A DNA stretch of 64,000 bases from Clostridiales bacterium (GTDB lineage: Bacteria > Bacillota > Clostridia > Lachnospirales > WQUN01). The position numbers and the translations under genes were made by a program. The notes beneath the pieces were generated by a model that was not told the DNA's origin, ran no database searches, and saw only the letters and a program-made list of their open reading frames with translations. Location: NCBI GenBank assembly GCA_031287685.1, contig JAITSQ010000010.1, forward strand, positions 1 to 64,000. The letters run 5' to 3'. Shown piece after piece: positions 1,755-58,654 of the stretch; position 1 is the first letter of the stretch, and each line of letters starts with the position of its first letter.

Positions 1755-3941
1755 CTATTCATTACGCTCCGTTATTTTCAGCGCTAACATTGTAATGTCG
1801 TCCGCTTGCTCCGCGCCGGACGCGAAACGCTCAACTTCCGCCTGTATGCCTGTTATCAGCTTTTGCGGCGCGTCCTCGCGCCCCGCGTTAAAAGCTCGCA
1901 TCAGCCGGGCCTCCGAAAAAAGTTCGCCGCCGCCATTCGCCGCCTCCGTCACGCCGTCCGTATACATAAACAGCGTATCTCCCGGCGCAAGCGTAGTTTC
2001 TTCTTGAGTATAAACCGTGTCCTCCATACCCGCCAGCACAAAGCCGGGGCGGCTTGAGCGCAGCCATTCGCCTTGCCCGGTGTTTTTTGGCTCTTGGCGC
2101 CGAGCCAAAAAGCCCCCTTCTTCCCCGCCGCCGCGCCTTATAATCGGCGGGTTATGTCCCGCGTTTACATATGAAAACCTGCCTGTGCTGATTTCGAGGT
2201 ATCCCATAAACACCGTGACAAACATACAGGTATCGTTGTTTTCGCAAAGCGACGCGTTCACGATTTCAAACACTCGTTTTGGAGACCACCCGCCAAGCTG
2301 AGCGATGTTTTTAAGCAATGTGCGCGCGACCACCATAAACATCGCGGCCGGTATGCCCTTGCCGGAAACGTCCGCTATCAGCACCGCCAAATGGTCGTCG
2401 TCCGTCATAAAAAAATCGTAAAAATCGCCGCCGACCGCTTTGGCGGGTTTCATTACCGCGTACATTTCCGGGAACAGGCTGAAATTACGCGGCAGCATAG
2501 AAGACTGTATCGCGCCCGCTATTTTAAGCTCCGCGCGTTCGCGCGCCTCGATGATGGCGGCGCGTTCAGCTTCTGTAATGTAGTCCTTCAGGCTGCGCGC
2601 CATTTTGTTTACAGAGGCGGCAAGCGTCCCAATCTCATCTTCCGCGCGGATATTAATCTCCTCGTCCAAAAATCCGTTAGCTATGCGTAAAACACCCTCC
2701 TGAAGCTGCGTGATCGGGCGCGTAATGGTTTTTGAAAACTTAATTGAAAACGCGATGATTACGCAAAAAGACAGCAGAAATACGGCAAAAAATTTAAGCA
2801 TAATTTTATTAATCGCCTTATCGAAAACCCGCGTCGTTCCGTCTTTTAGATTAGTTATCTGCGCTTCCATAATATGCTTTGTAACCTCCGTCTCTCTGAC
2901 GGGCAGCACAAAGCATATGCTCCAGTTTAAGGTTTTAAGGGGATAATAGGCGGCGTACACAAGTTCTTCGTCTATCTTCAGTTTGCGTAACCCGGACTTT
3001 CCGGAGGTCATCTCGGACGCCAGCGCCCTGAGTTCCTCGTTGGGGCTGTTGAGATAGTCTTCTCCCGTTACGGCGCCGTCGCCGCGGGCTGTCAAATTAC
3101 TGTTCGAGCGCTGATTTATAATCGCTTGCCCTCGGCTGTCCAGCAAAAAGGCGTACCCCTTCGCTCCTACCTCAGCATATCTTACTATGCCGTCTATTTC
3201 CGAGAGCATCGCGTCTGTGCCAGCGACTCCGCGAAAAATTTTCTCCTCGCCGCGAAGCTCGTAAATCGGCACGCTGCAGGTGATTTCCGCGCCGTATCCG
3301 TCTGAATAGTTCACAATCTCGCTCCAATACGCCGCGCCGGATTTTTTCGCGCCCTCATACCAATAACGCGCGCGCGGGTCGTAGCCGCGCAGCGGCGCGG
3401 CGGCGGCGGGATCTGAGTCCACCGCTATAAAACTGCCTTTTTCCGTGCCTATATAGCTTGCGATTATCGGTGAGTTTTCCTTCAAAACCGGGATCAGAGC
3501 GCCGCGAATGTTGCCCATAAGCAGCAGTTCCTCCCGCGCGTCCTCCCCCCCCTCTGGGGACAGGCTGTAACGCACGTTCTCCGAGGCGTCCAGGGCGTCT
3601 TGCCAGTTTGTGAGCGGCGCCGGCGCGTATTCCTTTTCGTGGGAATAAATGTAGGACGCGCTTTTCGCGACCGTCTCGCTTTGACGCTGAACCTTTTGCA
3701 GTTCGCTATCTACAAGCGCGACGCATTGTTCCGCGACTGTCCGCAGCGTATCAATCGCATGAGCCCTGTATATGGAAAACGTTTCCTCCGACATCTCCTG
3801 ACTAAGCTCGTTTATGTTGCCGATTGCGCTGTCGCGCATATTAAACGCGCCTATTATGCTGAATACGCCAAGAAACAGCAAACCGCTTAATGATATCGCT
3901 GAAATTATCCCCATTATTCTTAATTTGATGCTCTTTTTCAC
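1755..3941 (-). CDS. Membrane sensor PP2C phosphatase (Cache-HAMP-SpoIIE)
   Basis: A 728-residue receptor phosphatase. One membrane segment lies at about residues 9-32 (IMGIISAISLSGLLFLGVF), followed by a long extracytoplasmic Cache-like sensor to about 375, a second membrane segment (KFFAVFLLSFCVIIAFSI), a HAMP domain, a short helical linker and a C-terminal PP2C/SpoIIE domain. Metal-binding motifs are visible: GGDFYDFF, ADVSGKG and ADDITMLAL. It should dephosphorylate a STAS protein, and one is encoded 665 bp away. The start is a GTG with an AGGGGG about 12 bases upstream, a loose fit. It begins 31 bp after the Sfp-type gene and is probably co-transcribed with the NRPS. A 50 bp palindromic repeat is embedded in frame at residues 607-623, just after the conserved NAGHNPP. 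Confidence 0.9.
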   Translation of the reverse strand: MKKSIKLRIMGIISAISLSGLLFLGVFSIIGAFNMRDSAIGNINELSQEMSEETFSIYRAHAIDTLRTVAEQCVALVDSELQKVQRQSETVAKSASYIYSHEKEYAPAPLTNWQDALDASENVRYSLSPEGGEDAREELLLMGNIRGALIPVLKENSPIIASYIGTEKGSFIAVDSDPAAAAPLRGYDPRARYWYEGAKKSGAAYWSEIVNYSDGYGAEITCSVPIYELRGEEKIFRGVAGTDAMLSEIDGIVRYAEVGAKGYAFLLDSRGQAIINQRSNSNLTARGDGAVTGEDYLNSPNEELRALASEMTSGKSGLRKLKIDEELVYAAYYPLKTLNWSICFVLPVRETEVTKHIMEAQITNLKDGTTRVFDKAINKIMLKFFAVFLLSFCVIIAFSIKFSKTITRPITQLQEGVLRIANGFLDEEINIRAEDEIGTLAASVNKMARSLKDYITEAERAAIIEARERAELKIAGAIQSSMLPRNFSLFPEMYAVMKPAKAVGGDFYDFFMTDDDHLAVLIADVSGKGIPAAMFMVVARTLLKNIAQLGGWSPKRVFEIVNASLCENNDTCMFVTVFMGYLEISTGRFSYVNAGHNPPIIRRGGGEEGGFLARRQEPKNTGQGEWLRSSRPGFVLAGMEDTVYTQEETTLAPGDTLFMYTDGVTEAANGGGELFSEARLMRAFNAGREDAPQKLITGIQAEVERFASGAEQADDITMLALKITERNE
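2073..2122 (-). repeat. Palindromic unit inserted in frame in the PP2C gene
   Basis: The plus strand reads GCCCGGTGTTTTTTGGCTC, a short loop, GAGCCAAAAAGCCCCCTTCTT: the arms of the palindromic family with a GGCTC/GAGCC core. Translated in the phosphatase frame it gives GGFLARRQEPKNTG, a different frame from the NRPS copies. The reading frame continues intact on both sides. Confidence 0.85.
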
Positions 3942-6001: not shown

Positions 6002-9000
6002 TTAATCAAAATACCCTAACCCGCTAATACTTCCCGCAAAATCGGCAAGATATTTATCCGACGTGAGCGGCCACTTGAACCCAAGGCGTAACAGCGCCTG
6101 CGAGGTATAGCGGTTGTCCGCGCCGATTACGGTCATCTCTTTTTCGCCCGGCGAGTTTTGATAGGCGATCAGAGCGGACAGCTTCTTGACTTTCTTAGCG
6201 TCCTGAACCGCCTTGCTGTAGGCGCGGGCAAACTCCTCGCGCTCGCACGGCTTTACGTCAATGCCGCTCTCGTTCAGCACAGACACCACATCGCCCATAT
6301 ACACGCTGTGGTCGTTGTACGCGTGAAACACGGTACACTCTTTAGGAGTGACGGCAAGTTTGAGGATAGCCGCCGCCGTGCAGTCAATGGGCGAAAACTC
6401 AACCTCTCTCGCCATATCGCCGTAGGGGATACAGCCTAAAATGTGAAACGCCCGCAGCCGCCCGAGGAAGCTGTTTGTGTTGAAATTAGCCTGAAACTCG
6501 CCGTCCTCCGAACGCGCCATAAGGTTGCCCACGCGTATCACCTTAGCGTCCAAACCCTCCAGCGCCGCCTCAAGCACAAGGCGCTCCGCGAGGAACTTGC
6601 TGTTTACATATTTGTTGGACAAATCCTGCCCGAAATACAGCTTTTTTTCATCCAGCAATACGTCCTTGGGCGGATTGCCTCCAACGCTCATGCCCGCGAC
6701 GCTGGTGGTGGATATTTGCACGTATCCGCAGCCCGTCCTCCTGCTGAAAGCCAGCCCGTTTCTCACGCCGCCGATGTTTACGTCCTCGATGTCCGTACCC
6801 GCCGAGAAGTGTTTGACGTTCGCGGCGCAATTAAACAACGTGTCGACGCGTACTTTTTCCAGCTTTTCAAACACCTCCGCGCCGCGAATATCCCCGTCCA
6901 GCACGACAATCCGCGAACCAAACAGCTCGTCAAACGCATCGCTGAAATAATAAAACAGCATATTTTTGAGCCGCGTTTGGGCGGCGAGTTTGCCGCCGCG
7001 CACCACGCAATACGCGACGCCGCCGCAGCTCCGCAAATACTCCCTAAGCAGATGTACGCCCAAAAAGCCTGTCGCGCCTGTTATGCACACATTGCCAACC
7101 TCGCGCCGTTTGCCTTCCAGGAGGGAATCAATTGTGTTAGCCTGAAGCAGCTTGCGAAGCGCGTCATAGTCGTAATTATCAACCGCGTCCGCGGCGCTCG
7201 GCGTTTTTTGCGAACGCTCGCGGCCGCCGCGAAAAGCCGCTTCCTTCGCGTCCGGCGGCGCGGCGTTCGCAAGCAGACCCAGCTCGCGCGGGGTCGGGTT
7301 GTCGAACACGTCGCCGTAGCTTATCTGATATCCTTTGCCGCTTGCTTCAATCGTAACCTGCGTCACAAGCAAAGACGTGCCGCCGATGTCAAAGAAGTTG
7401 TCCTCCGCTCCCACCCGCTCAAGGCCCAGAGCCTTCGCGAAGATAGCGCAGTACGCCTCCTCCGCTTCGGTCGCGGGCGGCGCGTAGTCGTTTAACGCCA
7501 GCAGCTTAGCTTCGGGCAGCGCGCGGAGGTCTATTTTGCCGTTAGGGGTCATAGGCAGGCTGTCCAGCTGCAAATACGCTGTGGGGAGCATATACTTCGC
7601 CAGCGTGAGCGACAGCCGCTGACGCAGTTTGTCGGGCGCGAGGGCTGAGCCGGCGGTGTAGTACGCGCACAAATGCTCCTGTCCGTTTATGCTCTTAATC
7701 AGCGCGACGCTGCGCTTCACTCCCTCGCAAGCGCCCAGCGTGTTCTCGACTTCGCCCAGTTCGATACGCAGTCCGCGCAGTTTCACCTGTCCGTCGTTTC
7801 TGCCCAGTATAACGACTTCCCCGTCGTCTGTCCATTTGGCGATGTCTCCGGATTTATAGTAACGCGCGCCGCCGTAGGCGACAAACCGCTCAGCCGTCAG
7901 TTCGGGCTTATTCAGGTAGCCGCGCCCGACGCCCCTGCCGCCTATCCACAGTTCGCCGACGACTCCCGCCGGAAGCGGGTTGCCGTCTATATCCATAACC
8001 TGCTCCGCGACGCCGTCAACCGGCGCTCCTACCGTCACAACGCCGCTGTCAAGAAGGGGGCTTTTTGGCGGGGCATACATGGCCGCCCGGTTCTCAACCC
8101 GGAGACGCAAGCATTGCGTCGGAGGGCCAGCAAGAAGTTTCACGTTGCAGTCTATTGTTGTTTCGGTCGGACCGTAGCTGTTAAATATTTCCGCGTCCGT
8201 AAGCTCGCGCAGTTTGCCATACAGCCCGCTCGGGAACTTCTCCCCGCCGACCATAAGCATCTTGCAGCCGCCAAGCGCCTTTTTCATATCGGGGTGCTCC
8301 ATATATTGCGTAAGCACGGAGGGAGTCGCCCACAGGAAGTTAGCGCCCGTCCGGAACATAAGCTCCGCCAGCGCGGCGGGGTTGCGCGCCTGCTCCTCGT
8401 CCGCGAGCGCGAGGCTCAACCCGTTAAACAGCGTCATTATGACGTTGCCCGTGAACACGTCAAAGGACACCGTGGTAATGACCGCCGCTCTGCACCTGTG
8501 CCTGACCGCCGCGGCCTGTTGTATGTTGCGCTCAAAGGGCGCCGCCCAGCCCACCGCCGATTTGTGCTCAATCATCACGCCCTTCGGCTTGCCTGTTGAG
8601 CCGGAGGTGTAGATGACGTAGCACAAATTGCCGGGAGCCACGGCGACGCTTGGCCGCGCGGCGTTTGCGTGCGCGAGGAGCTTATCCGCGTCAAGCCCGT
8701 TGCCGAAGGCGTCTTTATTTTTCGCGTCCGTCAGTATATACTTCGCTCCGCTGTCCGCTATGATGTGGTCTATGCGCTCTTTGGGATAGGCGGGGTCTAT
8801 CGGAATGTACGCGCCCCCCGCTTTCAGTATGCCGAGTATCGAAAAAAGCACCCTGCTGTCCCTGGGCAGAAAAAACGCTATACGGTCCTCCGGCTTCACG
8901 CCCAGCTCCAGCAGCGCGTTAGCGACGCGGTTCGCGCCGTCGTTGAGCTGTTCGTAAGTAAACTCTCCGTCCGCGGCAATGAGAGCGACTGCGGAGGGCG

Positions 9001-12000
9001 CGGACGCCGCGTGCCGCTCAAAGAGTTCGTGCAGGGCGGGGGCGGGCAGCGGCTGTTCGGGGCCGCAAAAACTCGCGACGCGTTCAAGCTGTTTCTCCGT
9101 GGCGACCACAAAACCGCCCAGCTGCTTGTCTAAGTTTGCCGCGAACCTCTCCGCCACATGGGCCGCACAGTCCGCGAACGTCCGCATTGTGCTGTCTTTA
9201 AACAGCGACTTGTCATATCTGACCGTAAGCGTGTAACCGCCGGAAGCCTCCCCCACCGAAATATCCACGGGGAACTTCGCGGCGTCCAGCCGCACGGCTT
9301 CCGCCTTTGCCGCCAGGCCGCTGTTCTGTATCACGCCGCCCTGGTACGCGAACATTATTTGAGGTTCGTAAGAGTAGTCGGCGGCAATCCGCGTATACGG
9401 ATACGCCGAATGTTCCATAGTTTCAAGCATAACGCGCTGGACGTCCGCGAGATACCGCCGCGCCGAGCTGGCGGGGGGTATGTCAATCACAAGGGGCAGC
9501 GTTTTCACAAGCATACCCAGATTGCTTTGCAAATGAGCCTTGTCCCTGCCGTTTATGATTGTCGCCAGCCGCGCCTGCCTTACGTTCGCGAAGCGGCTTG
9601 CCGTGTAGCTAACCGCGCCCAGGAACAAGCTGGCGGGAGTGACTGCAAGCTGTTTCAGCGCGCCGGAGAGCTTGTCTTCGGGTATAAACGCGCTCACGCT
9701 CGCGGGCTCGCTCGGTGTTTTTTGGCGGCTGAATCCCCGCCCAAAAGCCCCCTCCTTGCTCGGTGTTTTTTGGCGGCCGAATCCCCGCCCAAAAGCCCCC
9801 TCCTTGCTCGGTGTTTTTTGGCGGCCGAAGCTCCGCCCAAAAGCCCCCTCCTCGCCCGCGTCTTCGGCGGCCGCGTGGTCGGCTGGTATGGCGGTCGCGC
9901 CCTCTCCGTCGCTTAAAAGCGAAACGAAGTACGCTTTCGCGCCGTCGTACTCAGCGTCTCCCTCACGCGGCTCCGCAAGCGATAAGTCAAAACTTGTGAA
10001 GGTTTCCGCTTCAAGAGCCTCGCCCGCCAGCGCCTTTGACAGGTCGCGCAGGAATATGTCCGCGGACGCGCCGTCAAAGATGATGTGGTGGAAGTCCATA
10101 AGCAGATGCACGGCTTTTTCGGTGCGGTACAATTCAACGCGGAACAGCGGCCCCTCAAAAAGGTTGAACGGACGCGCAAAAGCGTCGCGCAGCTTCTCGT
10201 ATTCAGCCTCCGCGACAGAGCCGCAGGGTATTTCAACCGGATATTCGTCCCGCCGCTCCTGACACACCTCGCCGTCTTTCATAACGAGGCGCGTCTTGAT
10301 GTAGGTATGCGCGGCTATGACGGCAAGCGCGGCTTTTTTGAGGTCGTCAAGGCTGGTTTCAGCGTCAAGCTCAAGCGCGAAAGGAATGTTGTACACAACC
10401 GACGCGGGCTGCCTGGCGCAGGCGAAATAAACGCCCAGCTGATTTTGCGTCAAGGGGTATACCTCACGTTTATCAAAGGCCGTCAGCGCGTAGTCGTCGT
10501 TTCGCTCCACCAGCGCTGCGAGTTTTTCTATTGTTTTTTCACGCATTATGTCGGTGGCGGCTATGGTCTTGCCCGTTTGTTTGGTTATCCGCGCCGCGAA
10601 CTTGATAGACGACAGCGACGTCAGCCCCATATACATCAAGTCGTTGGTAATGCCAAGTTCCGTCACGCCGAGAATATCCCGGGCTATGTCAAGCAGCTGT
10701 TTCTGCGCCTCCGTCTGCGGCGGAACCGATTCCTCGGCGGCTACCTCTATCTTCGGCAGTTTCCTTTTGTCAACCTTGCCGTTGGGGGTCAAGGGGATTT
10801 TATCTATTTGCGTAGTCGTCGCCGGCACCATATAAGGCGGCAGTTTTTGCTCAATAAACTGATTGAGCGCCTTTATGTCCACGTCCTTCCGCGACACGAT
10901 ATAAGCGACGGCGCGTTTGCCGCCGCCGGGCGCGTCCTGCGCGACTACGGAAGCCGCCGTTATGTCCGGGTACTGGAGTATGCGCCCCTCGATTTCCGTC
11001 AGCTCCACGCGGAAACCGCGTATCTTTATTTGGAAATCCCGCCGCCCCACAAAGTCAAGGACGCCGTCCGGCAGGAAGCGCGCCACGTCGCCCGTTTTGT
11101 ACATTACCGCCGTCTCTTCGCTTGTCCGGAACGGATTGGGCACAAACTTCTCCGCCGTCAGCTCCGGGCGGTTCAGATAGCCGGGGGACACCTGCCGCCC
11201 GGCTATACATAGTTCGCCCGCCGCGCCGACAGGCGCAAGCTCACCCTGTTTATCAAGCACGTACAGCTCCATATTGGGCAGGGCGCGGCCTACGGGCACG
11301 CGGTCATTTAAGCCCTCCACCTTGAAGAAGCTTGACGCGACGGTACATTCGGTCGGGCCGTAGAGATTGCATAAGCCGTACCCCTTCGGCGGCGCGATAG
11401 GCGTCAGCGTTTCCCCGCCCACCGACAGCGCGCGGAGCGAGCGGTTGTCCATATTCTCCGCGAACGCCCGCCCCATTTGCGTGGTGAGGAACGCCACGGT
11501 GATTTTGTTCCGGTTGTAATAGTCGTTTATGCCCGCCAAATCCAGCCGCGTTTCCTCGGGAATTATGTGCGCCGCGCCGCCGCTGATTAAAGCGGGATAC
11601 ACGTCCATCATAGACGCGTCAAAGCCGAAACTGGCGTAGGCGGCGGCGTTATCCGCTTGCGTCAGCTTGAAATAATTACGGTACCAGGTGCAGTAGTTCA
11701 CTACGTTTTTTTGCGACAGCATAACGCCTTTGGGCGTCCCCGTCGTGCCGGAGGTGTAAAGCAGAATCATTAAGTCGCCGGGCGCGGGCGGGTCCGGCAA
11801 AGCGTCCGCGGGGGGCAGCGCGGCGATATCGCCCGTATACAGATACTCTCCGCTCCCGCCGGTCAGCTCCAGGGCGATTGCTTCGTCTTTGATAATTACA
11901 GCCGCGTTCGCGTCGGAAACCATAAACGACAGGCGCTCCGCGGGGTAGGTCGGGTCAAGCGGGAGATACGCCGCGCCGCTTTTCATAACGCCCAGGGCGC

Positions 12001-15000
12001 ACACCACCATCATTTCGCTCCGATTGATAAGTATGCCCGCGACGCCGCCTTTGCCTATTCCCTTTTGCGCCAAACGCGCGGCCAAACGGTCTGTTAAGTC
12101 GTCAAGGGCGGCGTAGGACAGGACGCGGTCTTTGAACACGACGGCGGCGGCGTCCGGCGCGCTCCGCGCCCGCGCCCGTATTAAATCCACAAGAGTCCTG
12201 TCTATATTTTCATCTGATTTATCGCCGGTAAAATCCTCTAAAATCTGTTTCCTCTGGCGTTCCGGCAGGCGCGCGGCCTCTTGGACGCGCGCGGTTCCGC
12301 CGCGCTCCGTGATGTTTTTGATAACCTCCGTGAATTGTTCGAGCATACCCTCCACGACCGCTCCGTCATAAAGTTTATCTGAATAGCATAGCTCCAGTTT
12401 TATGCTGTCTTCGGAGCGTGTGAACTCAAACACCAAATCCATCGCCAGTTCCTGTCCCTTAACGCTCAGCCTGCTGACGGAAAGCGTCTTCATACGCCGC
12501 GGCGGCAGCTCGCGCAGATAGTTGACGGTCACGTCAAATATAGGGGAGCGGGAGGAGTTGCGCTCCTCCGCGAATTTTGAGACAAGCCTCTCAAAAGGAT
12601 AGGTCTGATGTTTTTGCAATTCATTTTGCAGGTTTGAAACTTCGGACACATAGTCCGCTACCGTCTTGTCAAAAGAGGGTTTGAGCCGCAGCGGGAGCGT
12701 GTTTACAAACATTCCGACCATATCGTCCGTTTCCGGGAGCGTACGCCCGTTCATAGCCGCGCCGATCACCACGTCCTCCGACGCGCAGTATTTGCCCAGT
12801 GTAATGCCTATCGCGGCGGTAAGCAGCGTATATGGCGTAACGCCTAACTTCTTCGCGGTCAGCTCAACCGCCGCCGCGTCAAGCGTTCGCGAGGCCCGCT
12901 CCGACGCGAAGGGCAGAGCGGCGGGGCGCGCGGCGGCGCACGGCATATCATTTTCGGGCACGCCTCCGGCAAACATATTATTGAAAAACGCCTCGCTGTC
13001 CGCGTACTCCTGACGCGCCTCCGCCCACACGGCGTAATCCGTATAATCAAACTGAACGGGCGGCAGAAGCTCGCCGTCGTACAGGCGCGTGAGCGCGTTT
13101 ATCAGCGTACCCGCGCCAGTGGCGTCAATGATGATGTGGTGCATACAAAAGTGTATGGCGCCCGTAAACTCGGACTGCCTAAACAGGTTTACGCGCGCGA
13201 GAGAGGGTTTGCCTATCTCAAAAGGGGTGTTGAGCGCCTTGATTTGAGCGTATATCTCCTCCTCCCGCGCGCAGGGTATTTCGTTGAAGGGCAGAGCTGC
13301 GCCCTCCGCTATCTTGTGCTGATATTCGCCGTCTTCATACACATAATATGAGCGCAGTATGGGGAAGCGCGCCGACAGCTGTTCAAGCGCCGCGGCAAAC
13401 CTTGTTTTGTCAAAGCGGCCTGTGTATTTCAGCGCGAAGTTGACGTTGTACGCTACGGAATCAGGGTGCAGGGTCTGCTCTATCGCCATTTGACGCTCCG
13501 CGAACGTGAGCGGGTACGACGTTCGTCGCGCGGCTTTTTCAAGAGGCCGCGCGTTCTCTTTCAAGACGGCGGCAAGTTTGCGCGGTGTGCGCAGAGTCAG
13601 AATATCGCTCACCGTGATACCGAACGCGGCTAACTCCCTCTGCAGTTTGAGCGCGTTTATCGAGTCGCCTCCCAGAAGGCCGAAGTCGTCCAGCGCGCCT
13701 ATGTTCTCAAGGCCGAGCGTTTTTTCAAACGCTTCGCACACCGCTCTCTCGCGCTCGCCCTCGGGCGGTTCGTAAAGCGTCTTCCATTTCTCCGCGTCGG
13801 GCGGAAGTATGCGGGCGCGGTCAACCTTGCCGTTTGCATTGAGCGGCAGCTCGTCTATCTGCTCCAAAAACGCGGGCAGCATATAATCAGGCAGGAAGGC
13901 GCGGATTGCGTCAAGAACCGCCTTTGGCGGGATTTTCTCTTCAGCCGTGTACACGCCGAACAAACTCGTCTGCCCGTACATATTTTCAAAGCCCTTCACA
14001 ACAGCTTTCTTGATAGGCGCGTACCGCGCCATAGCCGCCTCCACCTCGCCCGGCTCCACGCGGAAACCGCGTACTTTCACCATCCAGTCTTTTCTCTGCA
14101 CATACACGTACTGACCGTCGGAATTGAGATACCCCAAGTCGCCGCTGCGGAACACGCGCTCCCCGTTATACATAACGAACTTTTCCGCCGTCAGCTCCGG
14201 GAGATTGAGGTAGCCCTCCGCTATCTGTCCCGCGAGATACAGTTCTCCCGTTTCTCCTTGCGGCACTTCGTTCATATCGTCGTCTAATATGTAAACTTTG
14301 CTGCCGCCTGTGGGCCGCCCGATGGGAGTGCTGTCCGCATACAGCCGGTCTACTGTAAACGCGGAGATTGAACCGCAGGACTCGCTTGAGCCATAGCCGT
14401 TAACTAAAACAGGATGTTCACTGTAAACGCCAGCGAGCTTTTCAGAACCAACCCCGATTAAACGCAACAAGCCGCCCGTGGCGGCAAGAAACGGCGGCAA
14501 GGCCTGCGGAGGAATAAAAGCGGCGGTTATGCCGTTTTGCTTGGCGTAAGCGGCAAGCAGCCCAATATCTTTCCGAACGGCGTCGGAAGCGATATGCAGC
14601 GTCGCGCCGACAGCGACCAATTTCAGCGCGGCGGGTACGGACGCGACAAAGGAAAAGGGAGCGATAGAGAGGAATATGTCTGTGTTTAAGAAAAAACTGC
14701 TGTCTGTCAGCGCCATAGCTACTGAGCGATGCGACAGCAGTACGCCTTTGGGGTTGCCCGTCGAGCCTGACGTGTATACGACAAGCGCAAGGTCTTCGGG
14801 TTTAGCTTGGTCTATATCAAGAAGCGGCGCGCGCTCGGCGGGAGGGTTCATATGCTCCGCCGTCCACGCGTAGTCAACAAGAAAATCCGCCTTTATGTCG
14901 CTCATTATAAACTCGCGCCGCGCCTCCGGATAGGACGGCTCTATGAAGCAATAAGCCGCCCCGGCGCGCAACGCGCCGATTATCGCGACGACCGCCTCGT

Positions 15001-15187
15001 TGCAGCGGTCCATACTTATGGGAATGATATCGCCCTTGCCCAGCCCTTTGCCGCGCAGCGCGCTCGCGACGCCGGCGGAGCGCTTCCGCAGTTCGTCATA
15101 AGTAACGCTCTCGTTATTATATACCAACGCGGCTTTTGTTCCGTGCGCGCTTGCGCTTGATAAAAACTGCTCGATAAAAGTATTCAT
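6002..15187 (-). CDS. Three-module NRPS with terminal reductase (A-T-C-A-T-C-A-T-R)
   Basis: A 3061-residue synthetase. Order by residue: A1 about 1-465, T1 (LLGGDSINAL, Ser509), C1 555-965 (HHIIIDATG), A2 1000-1480 (LLYTSGTTGTPKG, NLYGPTE, Lys in TPNGKVDK), T2 (MGLTSLSSI, Ser1524), C2 1577-2000 (HHIIFDG), A3 about 2020-2560 (YTSGSTGKPKG, SYGPTETT), T3 (FFDIGGTSLL, Ser2605), then an NAD(P)-binding thioester reductase from about 2695 (GATGFLG 2704-2710; YVNSK). Reductive release predicts a three-unit peptide aldehyde or derived alcohol/cyclic imine. A1 has Val181 (FSFVAS) where FDAS is expected, so it probably loads something other than an alpha-amino acid. Palindromic repeats are inserted in frame at residues 1779-1826, 2351-2380 and 2648-2664. 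No thioesterase, epimerase or exporter is encoded nearby. Confidence 0.95.
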   Translation of the reverse strand: MNTFIEQFLSSASAHGTKAALVYNNESVTYDELRKRSAGVASALRGKGLGKGDIIPISMDRCNEAVVAIIGALRAGAAYCFIEPSYPEARREFIMSDIKADFLVDYAWTAEHMNPPAERAPLLDIDQAKPEDLALVVYTSGSTGNPKGVLLSHRSVAMALTDSSFFLNTDIFLSIAPFSFVASVPAALKLVAVGATLHIASDAVRKDIGLLAAYAKQNGITAAFIPPQALPPFLAATGGLLRLIGVGSEKLAGVYSEHPVLVNGYGSSESCGSISAFTVDRLYADSTPIGRPTGGSKVYILDDDMNEVPQGETGELYLAGQIAEGYLNLPELTAEKFVMYNGERVFRSGDLGYLNSDGQYVYVQRKDWMVKVRGFRVEPGEVEAAMARYAPIKKAVVKGFENMYGQTSLFGVYTAEEKIPPKAVLDAIRAFLPDYMLPAFLEQIDELPLNANGKVDRARILPPDAEKWKTLYEPPEGERERAVCEAFEKTLGLENIGALDDFGLLGGDSINALKLQRELAAFGITVSDILTLRTPRKLAAVLKENARPLEKAARRTSYPLTFAERQMAIEQTLHPDSVAYNVNFALKYTGRFDKTRFAAALEQLSARFPILRSYYVYEDGEYQHKIAEGAALPFNEIPCAREEEIYAQIKALNTPFEIGKPSLARVNLFRQSEFTGAIHFCMHHIIIDATGAGTLINALTRLYDGELLPPVQFDYTDYAVWAEARQEYADSEAFFNNMFAGGVPENDMPCAAARPAALPFASERASRTLDAAAVELTAKKLGVTPYTLLTAAIGITLGKYCASEDVVIGAAMNGRTLPETDDMVGMFVNTLPLRLKPSFDKTVADYVSEVSNLQNELQKHQTYPFERLVSKFAEERNSSRSPIFDVTVNYLRELPPRRMKTLSVSRLSVKGQELAMDLVFEFTRSEDSIKLELCYSDKLYDGAVVEGMLEQFTEVIKNITERGGTARVQEAARLPERQRKQILEDFTGDKSDENIDRTLVDLIRARARSAPDAAAVVFKDRVLSYAALDDLTDRLAARLAQKGIGKGGVAGILINRSEMMVVCALGVMKSGAAYLPLDPTYPAERLSFMVSDANAAVIIKDEAIALELTGGSGEYLYTGDIAALPPADALPDPPAPGDLMILLYTSGTTGTPKGVMLSQKNVVNYCTWYRNYFKLTQADNAAAYASFGFDASMMDVYPALISGGAAHIIPEETRLDLAGINDYYNRNKITVAFLTTQMGRAFAENMDNRSLRALSVGGETLTPIAPPKGYGLCNLYGPTECTVASSFFKVEGLNDRVPVGRALPNMELYVLDKQGELAPVGAAGELCIAGRQVSPGYLNRPELTAEKFVPNPFRTSEETAVMYKTGDVARFLPDGVLDFVGRRDFQIKIRGFRVELTEIEGRILQYPDITAASVVAQDAPGGGKRAVAYIVSRKDVDIKALNQFIEQKLPPYMVPATTTQIDKIPLTPNGKVDKRKLPKIEVAAEESVPPQTEAQKQLLDIARDILGVTELGITNDLMYMGLTSLSSIKFAARITKQTGKTIAATDIMREKTIEKLAALVERNDDYALTAFDKREVYPLTQNQLGVYFACARQPASVVYNIPFALELDAETSLDDLKKAALAVIAAHTYIKTRLVMKDGEVCQERRDEYPVEIPCGSVAEAEYEKLRDAFARPFNLFEGPLFRVELYRTEKAVHLLMDFHHIIFDGASADIFLRDLSKALAGEALEAETFTSFDLSLAEPREGDAEYDGAKAYFVSLLSDGEGATAIPADHAAAEDAGEEGAFGRSFGRQKTPSKEGAFGRGFGRQKTPSKEGAFGRGFSRQKTPSEPASVSAFIPEDKLSGALKQLAVTPASLFLGAVSYTASRFANVRQARLATIINGRDKAHLQSNLGMLVKTLPLVIDIPPASSARRYLADVQRVMLETMEHSAYPYTRIAADYSYEPQIMFAYQGGVIQNSGLAAKAEAVRLDAAKFPVDISVGEASGGYTLTVRYDKSLFKDSTMRTFADCAAHVAERFAANLDKQLGGFVVATEKQLERVASFCGPEQPLPAPALHELFERHAASAPSAVALIAADGEFTYEQLNDGANRVANALLELGVKPEDRIAFFLPRDSRVLFSILGILKAGGAYIPIDPAYPKERIDHIIADSGAKYILTDAKNKDAFGNGLDADKLLAHANAARPSVAVAPGNLCYVIYTSGSTGKPKGVMIEHKSAVGWAAPFERNIQQAAAVRHRCRAAVITTVSFDVFTGNVIMTLFNGLSLALADEEQARNPAALAELMFRTGANFLWATPSVLTQYMEHPDMKKALGGCKMLMVGGEKFPSGLYGKLRELTDAEIFNSYGPTETTIDCNVKLLAGPPTQCLRLRVENRAAMYAPPKSPLLDSGVVTVGAPVDGVAEQVMDIDGNPLPAGVVGELWIGGRGVGRGYLNKPELTAERFVAYGGARYYKSGDIAKWTDDGEVVILGRNDGQVKLRGLRIELGEVENTLGACEGVKRSVALIKSINGQEHLCAYYTAGSALAPDKLRQRLSLTLAKYMLPTAYLQLDSLPMTPNGKIDLRALPEAKLLALNDYAPPATEAEEAYCAIFAKALGLERVGAEDNFFDIGGTSLLVTQVTIEASGKGYQISYGDVFDNPTPRELGLLANAAPPDAKEAAFRGGRERSQKTPSAADAVDNYDYDALRKLLQANTIDSLLEGKRREVGNVCITGATGFLGVHLLREYLRSCGGVAYCVVRGGKLAAQTRLKNMLFYYFSDAFDELFGSRIVVLDGDIRGAEVFEKLEKVRVDTLFNCAANVKHFSAGTDIEDVNIGGVRNGLAFSRRTGCGYVQISTTSVAGMSVGGNPPKDVLLDEKKLYFGQDLSNKYVNSKFLAERLVLEAALEGLDAKVIRVGNLMARSEDGEFQANFNTNSFLGRLRAFHILGCIPYGDMAREVEFSPIDCTAAAILKLAVTPKECTVFHAYNDHSVYMGDVVSVLNESGIDVKPCEREEFARAYSKAVQDAKKVKKLSALIAYQNSPGEKEMTVIGADNRYTSQALLRLGFKWPLTSDKYLADFAGSISGLGYFD
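7196..7246 (-). repeat. Palindromic unit in the T3-reductase linker of the NRPS
   Basis: A 51 bp unit with the family arms (GCTCGGCGTTTTTTGCG and GCGAAAAGCCGCTTCCTT on the plus strand) and a GC-rich core. It encodes KEAAFRGGRERSQKTPS in the flexible linker between the last carrier domain and the reductase. It is in the same reading frame as the tandem copies in C2. Confidence 0.8.
8050..8136 (-). repeat. Longer palindromic element inside adenylation domain 3
   Basis: The plus strand begins AAGAAGGGGGCTTTTTGGCG and continues with GGCCGCCCGGTTCTCAACC and CGGAGACGC, matching almost base for base the element at 22055-22106 and partly the one near 49615. It adds about 28 residues (residues 2351-2380) between core motifs A5 and A6 without breaking the frame. 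The flanking protein, CNVKLL and DSGVVTVGAPVDG, reads as normal A-domain sequence. Confidence 0.8.
9710..9853 (-). repeat. Three tandem 48 bp palindromic units in NRPS domain C2
   Basis: Three head-to-tail copies of exactly 48 bp start at 9710, 9758 and 9806. Each has arms GCTCGGTGTTTTTTGGCGG and CCGCCCAAAAGCCCCCTCC. They encode 16-residue repeats of the form KEGAFGRGFGRQKTPS at residues 1779-1826, in the linker between the two lobes of the second condensation domain. Copies differ by single bases. Confidence 0.92.
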
Positions 15188-21995: not shown

Positions 21996-22490
21996 ACTAC
22001 AGCCGTTCTTACTTGAAAAAGGCTGAAAGCGAGAACGAAACGCGCGGCAAGCAGGTGGCTTTTTGGCGGGGCAGACACGGCCGCCCGGTTCTCAACCCGG
22101 AGACGCGTTTAGGTTTTGCGCGGGCGCGAACGTTTGCGGCGGCTTTTTCGCGAAGCGAAAATAGCGGGAGCAAGAAGGTGGCTTTTTCGGGCGGCTTTAA
22201 GCCCGAAAAAACACCGAGCAAGAAGGGGGCTTTTTCGAGCGGCTTTAAGCTCGAAAAAACGCCGAGCAAGAAGGGGGCTTTTTCGGCAGGCATTAGTGCC
22301 GAAAAAACACCGAGCAAATGTGGGGAAGCCGAAGGCGTGTTTAGTGTTCGCGCGGGCACGAACGTTTGCGACAGCTTTTTCGCGAAGCGAAAATAGCGGA
22401 AACAAACGCGGAGAACCGCCAAAAAACACCGACCATCAGGCGCGTTTCGGGCGACGCTTAAAGCTTATTTTCAAGTTGAACGGCTGTAGT
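21996..22490. mobile_element. MITE-like element with ACTACAGCCGTTC inverted ends
   Basis: ACTACAGCCGTTC at 21996-22008 and its perfect complement at 22478-22490 bracket 495 bp; the match extends inward as ACTTGAAAA/TTTTCAAG with one base of slippage. The interior carries no credible gene. It contains the GGCCGCCCGGTTCTCAACC segment shared with 8050-8136, two TTTTCGCGAAGCGAAAA hairpins and three tandem palindromic units. Minus-strand translation through the right end supplies the last codons and stop of the transglycosylase gene. No transposase is encoded. Confidence 0.8.
22171..22316. repeat. Three tandem palindromic units with compensating stems
   Basis: Forward units at about 22171-22219, 22220-22266 and 22267-22316. 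Arms are nearly identical (AAGAAGGKGGCTTTTT and AAAAAACRCCGAGC). The stems are CGGGC/GCCCG, CGAGC/GCTCG and CGGCA/TGCCG, around loops GGCTTTAA, GGCTTTAA and GGCATTAG. Base changes on one side are matched on the other, so pairing itself is conserved. Confidence 0.92.
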
Positions 22491-31479: not shown

Positions 31480-31568
31480 TATAGCGATTCCGTTTGAAAT
31501 AAGCCGCGTTCCTCGCCGGAAACGCGTTTCTTTCTCGAAACCGGCAAGTCAAACATGGAATTGCTCTA
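31480..31568. mobile_element. Short MITE-like element, AGAGCAATTCC family
   Basis: TATAGCGATTCCGTTTGA (31480-31497) and TCAAACATGGAATTGCTCTA (31549-31568) are near-complementary ends of an 89 bp non-coding element lying between the two HtrA-type genes. The same ends occur at 49432-49935, 53790-53892 and 58901-58977. Confidence 0.8.
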
Positions 31569-47610: not shown

Positions 47611-49395
47611 TTAAGCGTCCTTCGCGCGCTTCGCCGCAGCGAAGCCCAGCCCAAGCACGGCGTACCAGATTGTCGTCACCCCGACGGACGAATCCGTGAA
47701 GGCCATTCCGATAATCCCGGCGACGCCCGCGCAGAAGCACCCAAGGGCGACCCCGAAAAAAGTCCGTTCGCCGTCGCTGTCCGTTTTGCCGGAAAGGACG
47801 GCTTTAGCCGTGCCGGCGAGGAAAAACGCGTAAAGGCAAAACAGGGCGGCGAGCGATATCGCGCCGGTATTGACGAAGGTTTGCAGATACGCGCTTTTCG
47901 GCTGGATGACGCTGGCGTAAGGGTTGCCCATATACCGCGTCTTGCCGAGAATATCGTCCTGCGGGAAGTCGAACGCGAAGCAGTCCGGACCCGCTCCGGT
48001 CACAATGCGCTTCGGCAGGAGCGGCAGGGTTCTGTTCCATATATAGCCGCGGCCGCCGAACGCGGTTTCCTTAAAAAGGCTGGCGGAGGGGTATTCCTCA
48101 TAAAGGTCGGTGTAAAACCCGTCGAAACTGAGCGGATAAACCGCCCCGTGCGTGTATTGCAGCATAATATAGAGCGGCTGGCCGTTTTCGGCCATAACGC
48201 CGCGGAAATCCACAAAACATATATTTGACGCCTGGGAAAGCAAGGTAACGTCAACCGCGCCGTTTACCCCGGCGTATTCCGCCGCTTTTGAACCGTCCGC
48301 CCCCGGCGTGAGCTTCATAAGTTTGCCGTTTTCAACATAAAAACCCGAATCTCCGGAATACGCGACAATAACGTCGCCAGCGGAGGTGGAGACGACCGCG
48401 CGGTCTTTCAAGACGGAAATGTCCTTAAGGAAAAAGTCCTCCGAGCCGAACGGTTTGAAGCCGCGCGCGGCGATAAGGACGATAAGCGCGGCCGCCGGAA
48501 TAGACAGAAAGTACAGCGCGCGCCTCTTGACGGCGTTCGCTTTCTTTTCGCGGAGGGCAAGGAGGCCCAACCCCGCCGCGCTTGACGCGATAAACGGGTA
48601 AAGGCCTTGCGGCGCGCCGATAAGGCATATAGCCAGCAGCACGGAGGCGATTATGCTTAAGGCCCGCGCCGCCGATTTCCTGGCGGCGGCCGCGAAACAC
48701 ACGAAAAGCGGCAGGAGGAACGAGGCGTAAAGCCCCGTCCGCGCCGAATCCCCGAAAGTGGCGTAAACGCGGCCGACGGCCATATCGGAAATTTGCTTGA
48801 TCTGCTCGACCGGGCATATAATCCCCTTTATAAAAGGAAGCGAAAATATATCGAAGCCGAAGGTCTGCAGCGCGCCCGCGAAGCCCGCGCCCACCGCCCC
48901 CGCCGCCAGCACGCCCACGGCGGCTTTCGCCAAGGCGGCGGATTTAACGAAGCCGCGCATTTTCGCGAATACGACCGTATAGGAGATAAGGACGAAAATA
49001 TTCTCAAAGCTGTAGGCTATGCCCGTCGCCTGAACGAGGGGGTAGCGCGTCTCGAAAAGAGCCGAAAGCCCGGCGAAAATAAGGTATATCCACAAGGCGC
49101 GGGTTCCCTTTCCGCCGGCGCCGGCTATAATGCTCCTGCGCATAGCGGCGGGGCTTTCCGTAAAGGCGTTCGAGAGGAAAAGAAGCGCCGCCCCGGCTAT
49201 AAGCAGCCCCGACTTATAGAACGTGAAAAGGTCGCGCACCATGCCGGACTGGACCAACCAAGCCTCGTCGTTGTTGGCGACGCGCCCGTGCAGGAGCGTC
49301 GCCAGCGGCATTACCGCGAGGATTAGGATAAAGCTGATAAAATGAACCCTTTCCGTGAGTGTCAAGCCTGAAAACAAACGCTTTGCCCGGCTCAT
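47611..49395 (-). CDS. O-antigen ligase/Wzy-like polytopic membrane protein
   Basis: A 594-residue membrane protein with about a dozen hydrophobic segments and a large hydrophilic insert (residues about 315-440) predicted outside the membrane. RGYIWNRTLPLLPKRIVTGAGPDCF resembles the conserved periplasmic loop of O-antigen ligase-like (Wzy_C) proteins, which polymerise or transfer lipid-linked glycans. The insert (KDRAVVSTSAGDVIVAYSGDSG and beyond) looks like beta-strand sequence and is not usual for the family. No glycosyltransferase genes flank it. Substrate unknown. Confidence 0.65.
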   Translation of the reverse strand: MSRAKRLFSGLTLTERVHFISFILILAVMPLATLLHGRVANNDEAWLVQSGMVRDLFTFYKSGLLIAGAALLFLSNAFTESPAAMRRSIIAGAGGKGTRALWIYLIFAGLSALFETRYPLVQATGIAYSFENIFVLISYTVVFAKMRGFVKSAALAKAAVGVLAAGAVGAGFAGALQTFGFDIFSLPFIKGIICPVEQIKQISDMAVGRVYATFGDSARTGLYASFLLPLFVCFAAAARKSAARALSIIASVLLAICLIGAPQGLYPFIASSAAGLGLLALREKKANAVKRRALYFLSIPAAALIVLIAARGFKPFGSEDFFLKDISVLKDRAVVSTSAGDVIVAYSGDSGFYVENGKLMKLTPGADGSKAAEYAGVNGAVDVTLLSQASNICFVDFRGVMAENGQPLYIMLQYTHGAVYPLSFDGFYTDLYEEYPSASLFKETAFGGRGYIWNRTLPLLPKRIVTGAGPDCFAFDFPQDDILGKTRYMGNPYASVIQPKSAYLQTFVNTGAISLAALFCLYAFFLAGTAKAVLSGKTDSDGERTFFGVALGCFCAGVAGIIGMAFTDSSVGVTTIWYAVLGLGFAAAKRAKDA

Positions 49396-49431: not shown

Positions 49432-49935
49432 TAGAGCAATTCCATGTTTGACTTGCCGCTTTCGAGCCGGAAATCGCGGGCAAGAAGGCGGCTTTTTCGG
49501 CAGGCATTAGTGCCGAAAAAACGCCGAGCAAGAAGGTGGCTTTTTCGGCAGGCCAACTTGCTCGGTGTTTTGGATTGTCTAAAAAGATTTAGACAATCCA
49601 AAGCCCCCTTCTTGGCCGCCCGGTTTTAACCCGGAGACGCGTTTAGGTTTTGTGCGGGCACGAGCATTTGCGGCAGCTTTTTCGCAGAGCGAAAATAGCG
49701 AGAGCAAATGTGGGGAGGCACAAAACCTGCGTCGAAGGGTTTTTAACCCGAAGGCGTGTTTAGTGTTCGCGCGGCTTTAGGCGCGAACATTGCGCCGGAG
49801 GGCCAGCAAGCGGAGCTTGCGAGAGGGCATTAGTGCCGAAAAAACGCCGAGCAAGAAGGTGGCTTTCATTTGTCCAAACTTGTTTTAGACAAACGAAAAC
49901 GCCCTGCGCAGCTTATGTCAAACGGAATTGCTATA
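49432..49935. mobile_element. 504 bp MITE-like element packed with palindromic units
   Basis: TAGAGCAATTCCATGTTTGAC at the left end and GTCAAACGGAATTGCTATA (49917-49935) at the right end are near-complementary. Inside are a forward unit (49481-49529), a truncated one (to 49555), a reversed unit with TTGTCTAAA core (49557-49614), the GGCCGCCCGGTTTTAACCC segment shared with 22081 and 8090, nested arms GGTTTTGTGC...GCACAAAACC, and a final unit with TTTGTCCAAACTTG (49855-49902). No credible gene. Confidence 0.82.
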
Positions 49936-50176
49936 TAAATGATTTTAATACATAAATCATCATTTTTCAAGGAGAAGTTTCGGTAAATTCTAAGAGAGAT
50001 TTTTTTCTCGGCTTTACGCGTGCCGGCGCGAATAATTTATAGTAGAATAATTTAACGGACAAGAAGGGGGCTTTTAGTTGTCTAAATCCTGTTAGATGAC
50101 TAAAAACACCGAGCAAATCCGCGCCCCGTTTATCGCGGCCGTTATACGCCGAGGCGGAAGCGGGTGAGTTTTTTTC
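49936..50176. other. Leader region upstream of pfkA
   Basis: Between the MITE-like element and the pfkA promoter. It holds AT-rich sequence, one palindromic unit (50060-50115, listed separately) and no open frame with a start and ribosome site. Confidence 0.5.
50060..50115. repeat. Stand-alone palindromic unit, forward
   Basis: CAAGAAGGGGGCTTTTAG, TTGTCTAAA, loop, TTAGATGAC, TAAAAACACCGAGCA. It is complete, with both arms, and not part of a larger element, which helps define the unit's limits. Confidence 0.85.
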
Positions 50177-50205: not shown

Positions 50206-50254
50206 AAGTAAAAATATGCGCGGGTACCCCGCGCGAGATTACGGAGGAGCTAAT

Positions 50255-53789: not shown

Positions 53790-53892
53790 TAGAGCAATTC
53801 CGTTTGATATTGGCGCTCTTCCGCGCCGAAAACGCGTTAAAGCCCGCGATTTTCAGCTTGAACAACGCCTAATCAAACCTGGAATTGCTCTA
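53790..53892. mobile_element. Short MITE-like element, AGAGCAATTCC family
   Basis: TAGAGCAATTCCGTTTGATA (53790-53809) and TCAAACCTGGAATTGCTCTA (53873-53892) are inverted ends of a 103 bp element between the ackA terminator and the YvyF-like gene. The interior is GC-rich with CGCGCCG-type palindromes and no open frame. Confidence 0.82.
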
Positions 53893-58152: not shown

Positions 58153-58189
58153 AAAATCCCCCCACACATTAGCAATTTTCAAAATCGTG

Positions 58190-58399
58190 GCTCGGCGTTT
58201 TGAGCTTCCAAGAGAAGCTCAAAGCCACCTTCTTGACTGCCGACGTTCGCGAAAAACGGCTTAAAAACGGTGTTTTTCGGCACTAATGCCCTCTCGCAAG
58301 CTTCGCTTGCTGGCCGGGCGGCCGTGTTGGCCTGCCAAAAAGCCGCCTTCTTGCCCGGTGTTTTTCGGCACTAATGCCTGCCGAAAAGCCACCTTCTTG
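58190..58399. repeat. Cluster of three reverse palindromic units
   Basis: Units at 58190-58235 (core GAGCTTC/GAAGCTC), 58267-58353 (a longer form with TCGGCACTAATGCC, CGCAAGCTTCGCTTGC and GGCCGGGCGGCC) and 58354-58399 (core TCGGCA/TGCCGA). All are in the same orientation and end in the AGCCRCCTTCTTG arm. An open frame of 62 codons running through them (58261-58449, minus) has repeat-derived sequence and no ribosome site; I do not call it a gene. Confidence 0.82.
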
Positions 58400-58654
58400 C
58401 CGCCGATTTTCCGCTCCGCGCCAGTCAACGTTTTGTAAAATTGCTGCAATCACCTCTAATTTTATACCGGAAAGCGAAGCGGCGCAACGCTTTTCGTCCC
58501 CCCTTAAACCTCTCTAAAATACAAAAAAAGACGGTCTCCGTCTGTTTTCGCGCCGCTCGGTGTTTTTTTTACTTGCAGAATCGGAATTGCTTTATGCCGT
58601 CTAAAAGGCTTTAGGCGGCATAAAGTTTCCTTAACTTAAAATTATATTTTGCCC
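58400..58654. repeat. Intergenic region with a half unit and a partial AGAGCAATTCC end
   Basis: 58555-58575 carries one arm of a palindromic unit (GCTCGGTGTTTTTTTTAC), 58581-58594 one end of the AGAGCAATTCC MITE (TCGGAATTGCTTTA), and 58590-58629 a complete hairpin TTTATGCCG...GGCGGCATAAA with AGTTTCCTT. This looks like a unit inserted in, or fused to, a MITE remnant. The rest has no features I can support. Confidence 0.6.

Follow-up and report, generated by a model that had tools for sequence, protein, structure and literature searches.

The window analysed here is a stretch of 64,000 nucleotides (C11:1–64000) from a 1.88-Mb genome that is assembled in 37 contigs and is 97% complete (G000). 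At positions 49432–49935 of the window, a 504-bp composite element lies between two divergent genes, one encoding an unannotated protein of 594 amino acids (reverse strand, start at 49395) and the other a phosphofructokinase (forward strand, start at 50216). The closest named relative of the phosphofructokinase belonged to the 'Defluviitaleaceae' MAG Lab288P3bin199 (77%), and gut Clostridia were among the next matches. This MAG series is of termite-gut origin, and the host is therefore probably an uncultured member of the gut Clostridia.

The composite is a type A MITE (ends TAGAGCAATTCC) that is flanked by TA, folds as a hairpin over its full length, and holds nested hairpin modules at its tip (Table 1). 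An earlier note on this DNA had described it as a composite of nested hairpins, and this was borne out by its imperfect terminal inverted repeats with TA at each end and by its fold as single-stranded DNA, which reached −142.3 kcal/mol versus −86.5 ± 4.9 in shuffled sequences (z about −11.4). The palindromic units that the note had counted, at least four in both orientations, are present, one of them split over 49530–49852, as is the longer nested palindrome formed by GGTTTTGTGC and GCACAAAACC. The split is apparent from the loop sequences, as cargo-free alpha loops read GGCAGGC^ATTAGTGCC (^ marks an insertion point), whereas the second alpha unit of the composite reads GGCAGGC^CAAC...GAGGGC^ATTAGTGCC. 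The unit motif occurred 18 times in the window, against 0.11 occurrences expected, and a separate beta-type unit without MITE ends lies at 50061–50111, between the composite and the start of the phosphofructokinase gene.

Table 1. Parts of the composite element and other features carrying hairpin units; positions are those of the window unless a contig is named.
Feature	Position	Strand	Basis or remark
Type A left terminal inverted repeat, TAGAGCAATTCCATGTTTGAC	49432..49452	+	TA at outer edge; 38 paired-end type A MITEs
Left MITE arm, then left half of central octaloop hairpin up to insertion point GGC^ (...AAATCGCGGGC)	49453..49481	+	Empty type A copies
Alpha unit, intact, 48-bp hairpin	49482..49529	+	Covariance-model match 49480–49531, E 2.0e-19
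Second alpha unit, left half, as far as its own loop GGC^	49530..49553	+	
Composite cargo in loop of second alpha unit: modules D, beta, E, and M3	49554..49828	+	~275 bp
Beta unit, alpha frame with different inner hairpin	49560..49613	-	Cargo version without beta reads CCAACACGGCCGCCCGG
Module E, first copy; inner hairpin GGTTTTGTGC/GCACAAAACC (49646–49655/49718–49727) encloses M3	49624..49739	+	
Module M3 (CACGAGCATTTGC...GCAAATGTGGGGAG) in loop of E	49657..49717	+	One family member folds at z −4.4
Module E, second copy, tip loop GGCTTTAG	49740..49802	+	
Module D, right part, hairpin GCAAGCGGAGCTTGC	49803..49825	+	
Split second alpha unit, right half (ATTAGTGCCGAAAAAACGCCGAGC)	49829..49852	+	41-nt exact repeat of 49503–49543 at 49826–49866 (family D2)
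Third unit, alpha frame with another inner hairpin (CATTTGTCC...GACAAACG)	49853..49907	+	
Type A right terminal inverted repeat, GTCAAACGGAATTGCTATA	49917..49935	-	
Type A MITE without cargo, 103 bp, natural pre-insertion allele	53790..53892	-	
Type B MITE, cargo at equivalent tip loop (...CGCGCGGC^386 bp^ATCAGGCGCG...)	21998..22488	+	
Type C MITE, cargo at tip loop, gamma unit in one arm	58169..58447	-	
Three alpha units (3 × 48 bp) in frame in NRPS gene (6002–15187)	9710..9853	-	
Alpha unit in frame in gene with SpoIIE phosphatase domain (1755–3941)	2078..2122	-	Open frame and domain
PolC gene with two in-frame alpha units, just upstream of C-terminal helix-hairpin-helix part	G000:C15:14002-15447 (L177:3-1448)		

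The alpha unit is a 48-bp hairpin whose structure is maintained by covariation. In its stem, 98.5% of pair cells were paired, versus 83.7% in shuffles, and 64 cells had double-sided changes, versus 24 in shuffles. There is almost no variation in the outer frame (GGNGGCTTTTT...AAAAACRCC), an unpaired GC included, whereas compensated changes occur in the five inner pairs. The loop of 8 nt is mostly GGCNNTAR and is of the same kind as the loops at the MITE tips. The reading of the earlier note would have been refuted by a lack of further copies, or of interior sharing, elsewhere in the genome. Both were found: the genome contained 114 stretches matching the composite, 66 matching the element at 22 kb (21998–22488), at least 152 compact units detected with the alpha covariance model (E ≤ 4.1e-11 for those listed), and, in the 355 kb surveyed below, three MITE end types with shared modules. 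The units were 45–55 bp long (alpha 48, beta 54, gamma 45, beta2 55), and a supposed rule that every unit length is divisible by three was dropped on account of beta2. Unit ends of the form AAGRAGGNGGC...ACRCCGRGC recurred in 158 unit arrays, 77 of which were outside paired-end MITEs, some possibly belonging to decayed or cut MITEs. The alpha loop GGCATTAG was itself split by larger cargo at GGC^ATTAG, and M3 was found in both alpha loops and E loops; the nesting is therefore recursive, because the tip of alpha carries a MITE-like loop that can be split in turn. In one alpha unit (G000:C22:47850-47888), the tip loop was inverted relative to the frame, reading TTACTGCC for GGCAGTAA, as though the tip had turned over inside the palindrome. 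A hairpin unit was present within 600 bp of 16 of the 20 contig ends examined, a biased sample in that the ends had been fetched because of matches, and the repeats therefore probably break the assembly of this genome. A tRNA scan returned nothing, nor did a DNA pattern scan of genome contigs, a set from which this genome is possibly absent, and viral contigs contained no exact match to the core or alpha patterns.

Terminal repeats were paired in a survey of 355 kb of the genome (~19%), chosen around the matches. The survey yielded 76 paired-end MITEs (38 of type A, 6 of type B, and 32 of type C), which formed a growth series from 78 to 716 bp. Type B is the end type of the element at 21998–22488, and type C ends read TATAGCAATTTT. 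As in other MITEs, the elements are short, have imperfect terminal inverted repeats, occur in many copies, and contain no transposase gene. TA was present at both ends of nearly all copies, and no orthologous empty chromosomal site was seen. Across the whole genome, TADAGCAATTYY ends occurred 168 times, versus 12 for the reversed control. Intact empty copies were about 101 bp in length and the shorter ones were deletion derivatives. An 89-bp type A MITE at window positions 31480–31568 lacks the octaloop centre, apparently through an internal deletion.

When the three types were aligned on their centres, the central cargo in all of them began after the GGC of the 8-nt tip loop, GGC^NTTAR, and this insertion point held wherever both flanks were preserved, point changes aside. 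The empty centres are hairpins with the loop GGCTTTAA, GGCTTCAA, or GGCATTAG, that of type B being a reconstruction; no empty type B allele was found among the six type B MITEs of the surveyed 355 kb. Empty type A copies (C11:53790–53892 and C7:30307–30408) read AAATCGCGGGC^TTYAACGCG. Several type A elements, the composite among them, lack the right half of the centre, and their insertion point is therefore visible from one side only. The central cargo measured 0, 47/48, 94/95, 141, and so on up to 562 bp, and many of these lengths are multiples of 47 or 48. Specifically, the type A tip AAATCGCGGGC^TTCAACGCG contained inserts of 0, 47, 95, 141, 143, and 214 bp; the type B tip AAACGCGCGGC^ATTAGGCGCG, inserts of 48, 101, and 386 bp; and the type C tip AAATCGGCGGC^TTTAAGCCG, inserts of 0, 47, 48, 89, 94, 95, 101, 133, 180, 196, 205, 252, 300, 378, 514, and 562 bp.

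The same modules were distributed across the three end types. Alpha was present in 25 of 38 type A, 4 of 6 type B, and 22 of 32 type C MITEs, with one to four units in tandem inside MITEs with A, B, or C ends. M3 was found in four type A, two type B, and seven type C MITEs, and E in four, one, and eight, respectively. The earlier note had observed that the composite shares its interior with the element at 22 kb despite their different ends, and this agrees with the alignment, in which 49614–49707 matched at 89%, in addition to the units. The note had also proposed that units invade MITEs, and this proposal is supported by MITE families that occur both empty and filled in this one genome, by the GGC^ site, and by the occurrence of units outside MITEs, including in frame within genes.

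Judging from alignments with solved relatives (PolC, pyridoxal kinase, and NRPS) and from reading frames (the other genes), units occur in frame within coding genes. Residues 381–413 of PolC, which correspond to two alpha units (33 extra residues), have no counterpart in the Geobacillus PolC, and the alignment resumes on both sides. The pyridoxal kinase gene contains a whole nest that is open throughout and places ~140 extra residues between the two segments that align with a solved relative. The NRPS units contribute 48 residues (3 × 16) between two matched parts of a condensation domain; the NRPS itself is 3061 amino acids long and contains three stretches each of the AMP-binding and condensation types, followed at the C-terminus by a NAD_binding_4 domain of the reductase type. 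In-frame units also occur in genes for a VanY-like peptidase and a ComEA-like protein, on the basis of an open frame and a domain only.

The alpha covariance model found no alpha in 60 relatives, and one beta-like unit was detected in the relative G044 (L165). This unit, from a related genus, lies beside an empty MITE (L165:1500-1660) that shares all 28 nt of its core with type C of the present genome. A search of 40 relatives with the whole composite gave two weak matches only (L081 and L082). The MITE core (GAAAATCGNNGGCTTNAANNCGTTTTTC, with three or fewer mismatches) was found in 13 of 38 family genomes, including the present one; G042 had 35 copies and G044 had 20. At least two single matches (L236 and L242) were not MITE-like. 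In most of the other matches inspected, the core was in the middle of a hairpin, in a MITE of ~101–104 bp with TA edges and with terminal repeats that differed between genera. The MITEs of the relatives are empty and share the core but not the ends. Across nine MITE types in the family, the core was 83% and the arms 47% identical, the core value being inflated because the MITEs were retrieved by their core, and 26 of 38 pairs kept pairing through double changes. The identity between the type C core of the present genome and that of G044 (28 of 28 positions) was not forced by the search.

Taken together, the composite is probably a non-autonomous, TA-flanked hairpin MITE that grew from its tip, as modules inserted after the GGC of an 8-nt loop and then nested in one another. 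The host MITE forms one long hairpin with a small hairpin at its centre, the 8-nt loop of which is GGCNTNAR, and small mobile hairpin modules, chiefly alpha and its variants, would insert after the GGC of this loop. Alpha, which may move as a defined unit, and module E have a loop of that kind of their own, and larger cargo (D, M3) is present in those loops. Repeated loop insertion together with tandem duplication of alpha would generate nested composites, which presumably then spread as MITEs of three end types. A trans-acting recombinase would recognize the extruded hairpin, either single-stranded or cruciform, or its loop, which would thereby act as the target signal. The earlier note had not foreseen that the tip loops of guest and host are alike in kind, so that each insertion would offer a new landing site.

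Module insertion at the tip has to be weighed against an exchange of interiors, in which modules would have entered a single MITE type on one occasion, with homologous recombination or gene conversion then carrying copies into the other types and the MITEs amplifying them. The copies within a type are clearly related, many type C elements keep the order of the composite (alpha, D with beta, E, alpha-GAT, beta2, gamma), and parts of the composite's cargo are 92–98% identical to the cargo of type C elements. However, each of the types A, B, and C has its own sequence on either side of the insertion point, which would provide little homology for exchange, and units with defined ends also occur outside MITEs and in genes. 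We consider this explanation unlikely. The suggestion in the earlier note that MITEs have exchanged interiors is tenable for particular copies, but wholesale exchange is not needed.

Another explanation involves no transposase: cruciform tips would be cut (e.g., by SbcCD), and hairpin fragments captured via GC microhomology, or the arms would be rebuilt by template switching during replication. Such growth is consistent with the presence of module families with unrelated ends (alpha, D, E, and M3) at hairpin tips, and tip cleavage with capture accounts better for the unrelated ends of D, E, and M3. The inverted loop of the unit at C22:47850 and the arms that remain palindromic as their sequence changes point in the same direction. 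Nevertheless, alpha and its variants keep precise ends throughout the 158 arrays, including those at non-tip sites, which random capture would not predict, and transposase-free growth appears still less likely. It is very unlikely that the hairpins are maintained as structured RNA (terminators, mRNA stabilizers, or regulatory RNA) and that the composite is a structured transcript, as, despite the strong folds, the covariation, and the location between divergent gene starts, the window gave no Rfam covariance-model match at the gathering threshold, the units are used in both orientations and in coding locations, and no U-run follows them, for which reason a role as intrinsic terminators was set aside.

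In the favoured explanation, insertion at the tip is claimed solely for the MITE centres and module loops, because a general rule that all units insert at hairpin tips was only weakly true across 74 distinct contexts. Units were also found in MITE arms (gamma at AGTC^CACG, beta2 at CGCG^AACG, and one alpha at TTC^AAGCC), inside M3 (GAGAGC^AAATG), and elsewhere, often at C^AAR. The inverted flanks around reconstructed sites averaged 4.01 versus 3.48 in shuffles, above all 300 shuffles but a modest excess (74 distinct contexts). Some insertions are bordered by repeats of 3 bp, namely ACG for PolC, GAG for the NRPS gene, and AAG for one in a type A MITE arm, and others are not. Because copies within one MITE family are related rather than independent, the independent tip insertions may be few, about one per host type (A, B, C, the alpha loop, and the E loop).

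Searches of the genome for IS630, Y1, reverse transcriptase, and IS110 enzymes gave no good candidate for the recombinase. DDE_3 (IS630) was absent from the genome, although its loss from the assembly is possible at 97% completeness, and was also absent from five relatives with core MITEs (G042, G044, G047, G007, and G041). Y1 (RAYT, PF01797) had no match in the genome, whereas control genomes were positive. IS110 was rejected, as its sole trace is a fragment at a contig end; this truncated IS110-type transposase reading frame (L307:1410-1583) directly abuts a beta-like hairpin unit at the end of contig C37. Reverse transcriptase was likewise rejected, as the only RVT_1 match in the genome (G000:C36:1122-1529; L306:600-2225) is a defence-associated RT of 541 amino acids that matches Drt4 (E 1e-196).

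A further, tentative possibility is that the loops are self-propagating sites, at which a recombination system recognizes the extruded GGCNTNAR loop and inserts hairpins bearing the same loop, with the elements growing recursively from the tip; the conserved part of the host MITE superfamily would be this core hairpin and the terminal repeats would diverge between genera, the opposite of ordinary MITEs. The copies described here (empty, with one, two, or three units, and the nested composite) form a readable series of intermediates for how small bacterial palindromic elements turn mosaic, an open question for BOX, BIME, and Correia-type elements. They suggest a loop-targeted, self-renewing insertion process. 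The 16-codon unit in frame in PolC bears on how selfish hairpins become protein sequence, and, because MITEs across the family have the core in common but not the ends, it can be tested which of the two determines mobility.

The composite resembles several known systems in part. A full-text search of a limited literature library returned no description of small hairpins nesting in a shared loop, which is weak evidence. IS630-derived MITEs such as RUP similarly have TA edges, imperfect terminal inverted repeats, a length of ~100 bp, a single hairpin, and no gene; however, no DDE_3 was found in the present genome, G042, or G044, and here the core is more alike than the ends. The GTAG or CGTC end tag of REP/REPIN sequences with RAYT was not found, the unit ends being AAGRAGG and CRCCGRGC. 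IS elements of the IS3 and IS110 families (IS1397, ISKpn1, IS621, and ISPpu9) target REP or palindromic units (PMC1525189) and thus likewise insert into small palindromic repeats, but these IS elements encode proteins, whereas here the guest is a tiny hairpin that brings its own target loop. Rickettsia palindromic elements are palindromic, mobile, and found in frame inside protein-coding genes (PMC10969869). The in-frame insertion in coding genes is similar by description, but these elements are about 150 bp long, whereas the present units are 45–55 bp, tandem, and nested in MITEs, have variable, co-varying arms, and occur in a Clostridia genome. The repetitive or double hairpin elements of fungal and sponge mitochondria are likewise small hairpins with repeated insertion, also in tandem and, with the frame preserved, in genes (PMC2800124); their loops vary and their stems are conserved, and the available part of that source mentions no nesting at a conserved loop.

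The closest parallel is BOX of Streptococcus pneumoniae and S. suis (boxA-boxBn-boxC, with boxE/boxF ends in S. suis), in which, compared by description, distinct end modules likewise surround variable tandem interior modules. In the elements described here, by contrast, modules nest in each other's loops, a single kind of tip loop is common to the three end types, and units are additionally found outside MITEs and inside genes; insertion of boxB into loops is not described in the available part of the BOX source (PMC3049150). According to the same part, S. suis BOX has two different end pairs around the same boxB modules (PMC3049150), which makes it a direct precedent for the enclosure of a single kind of interior module by two types of end.
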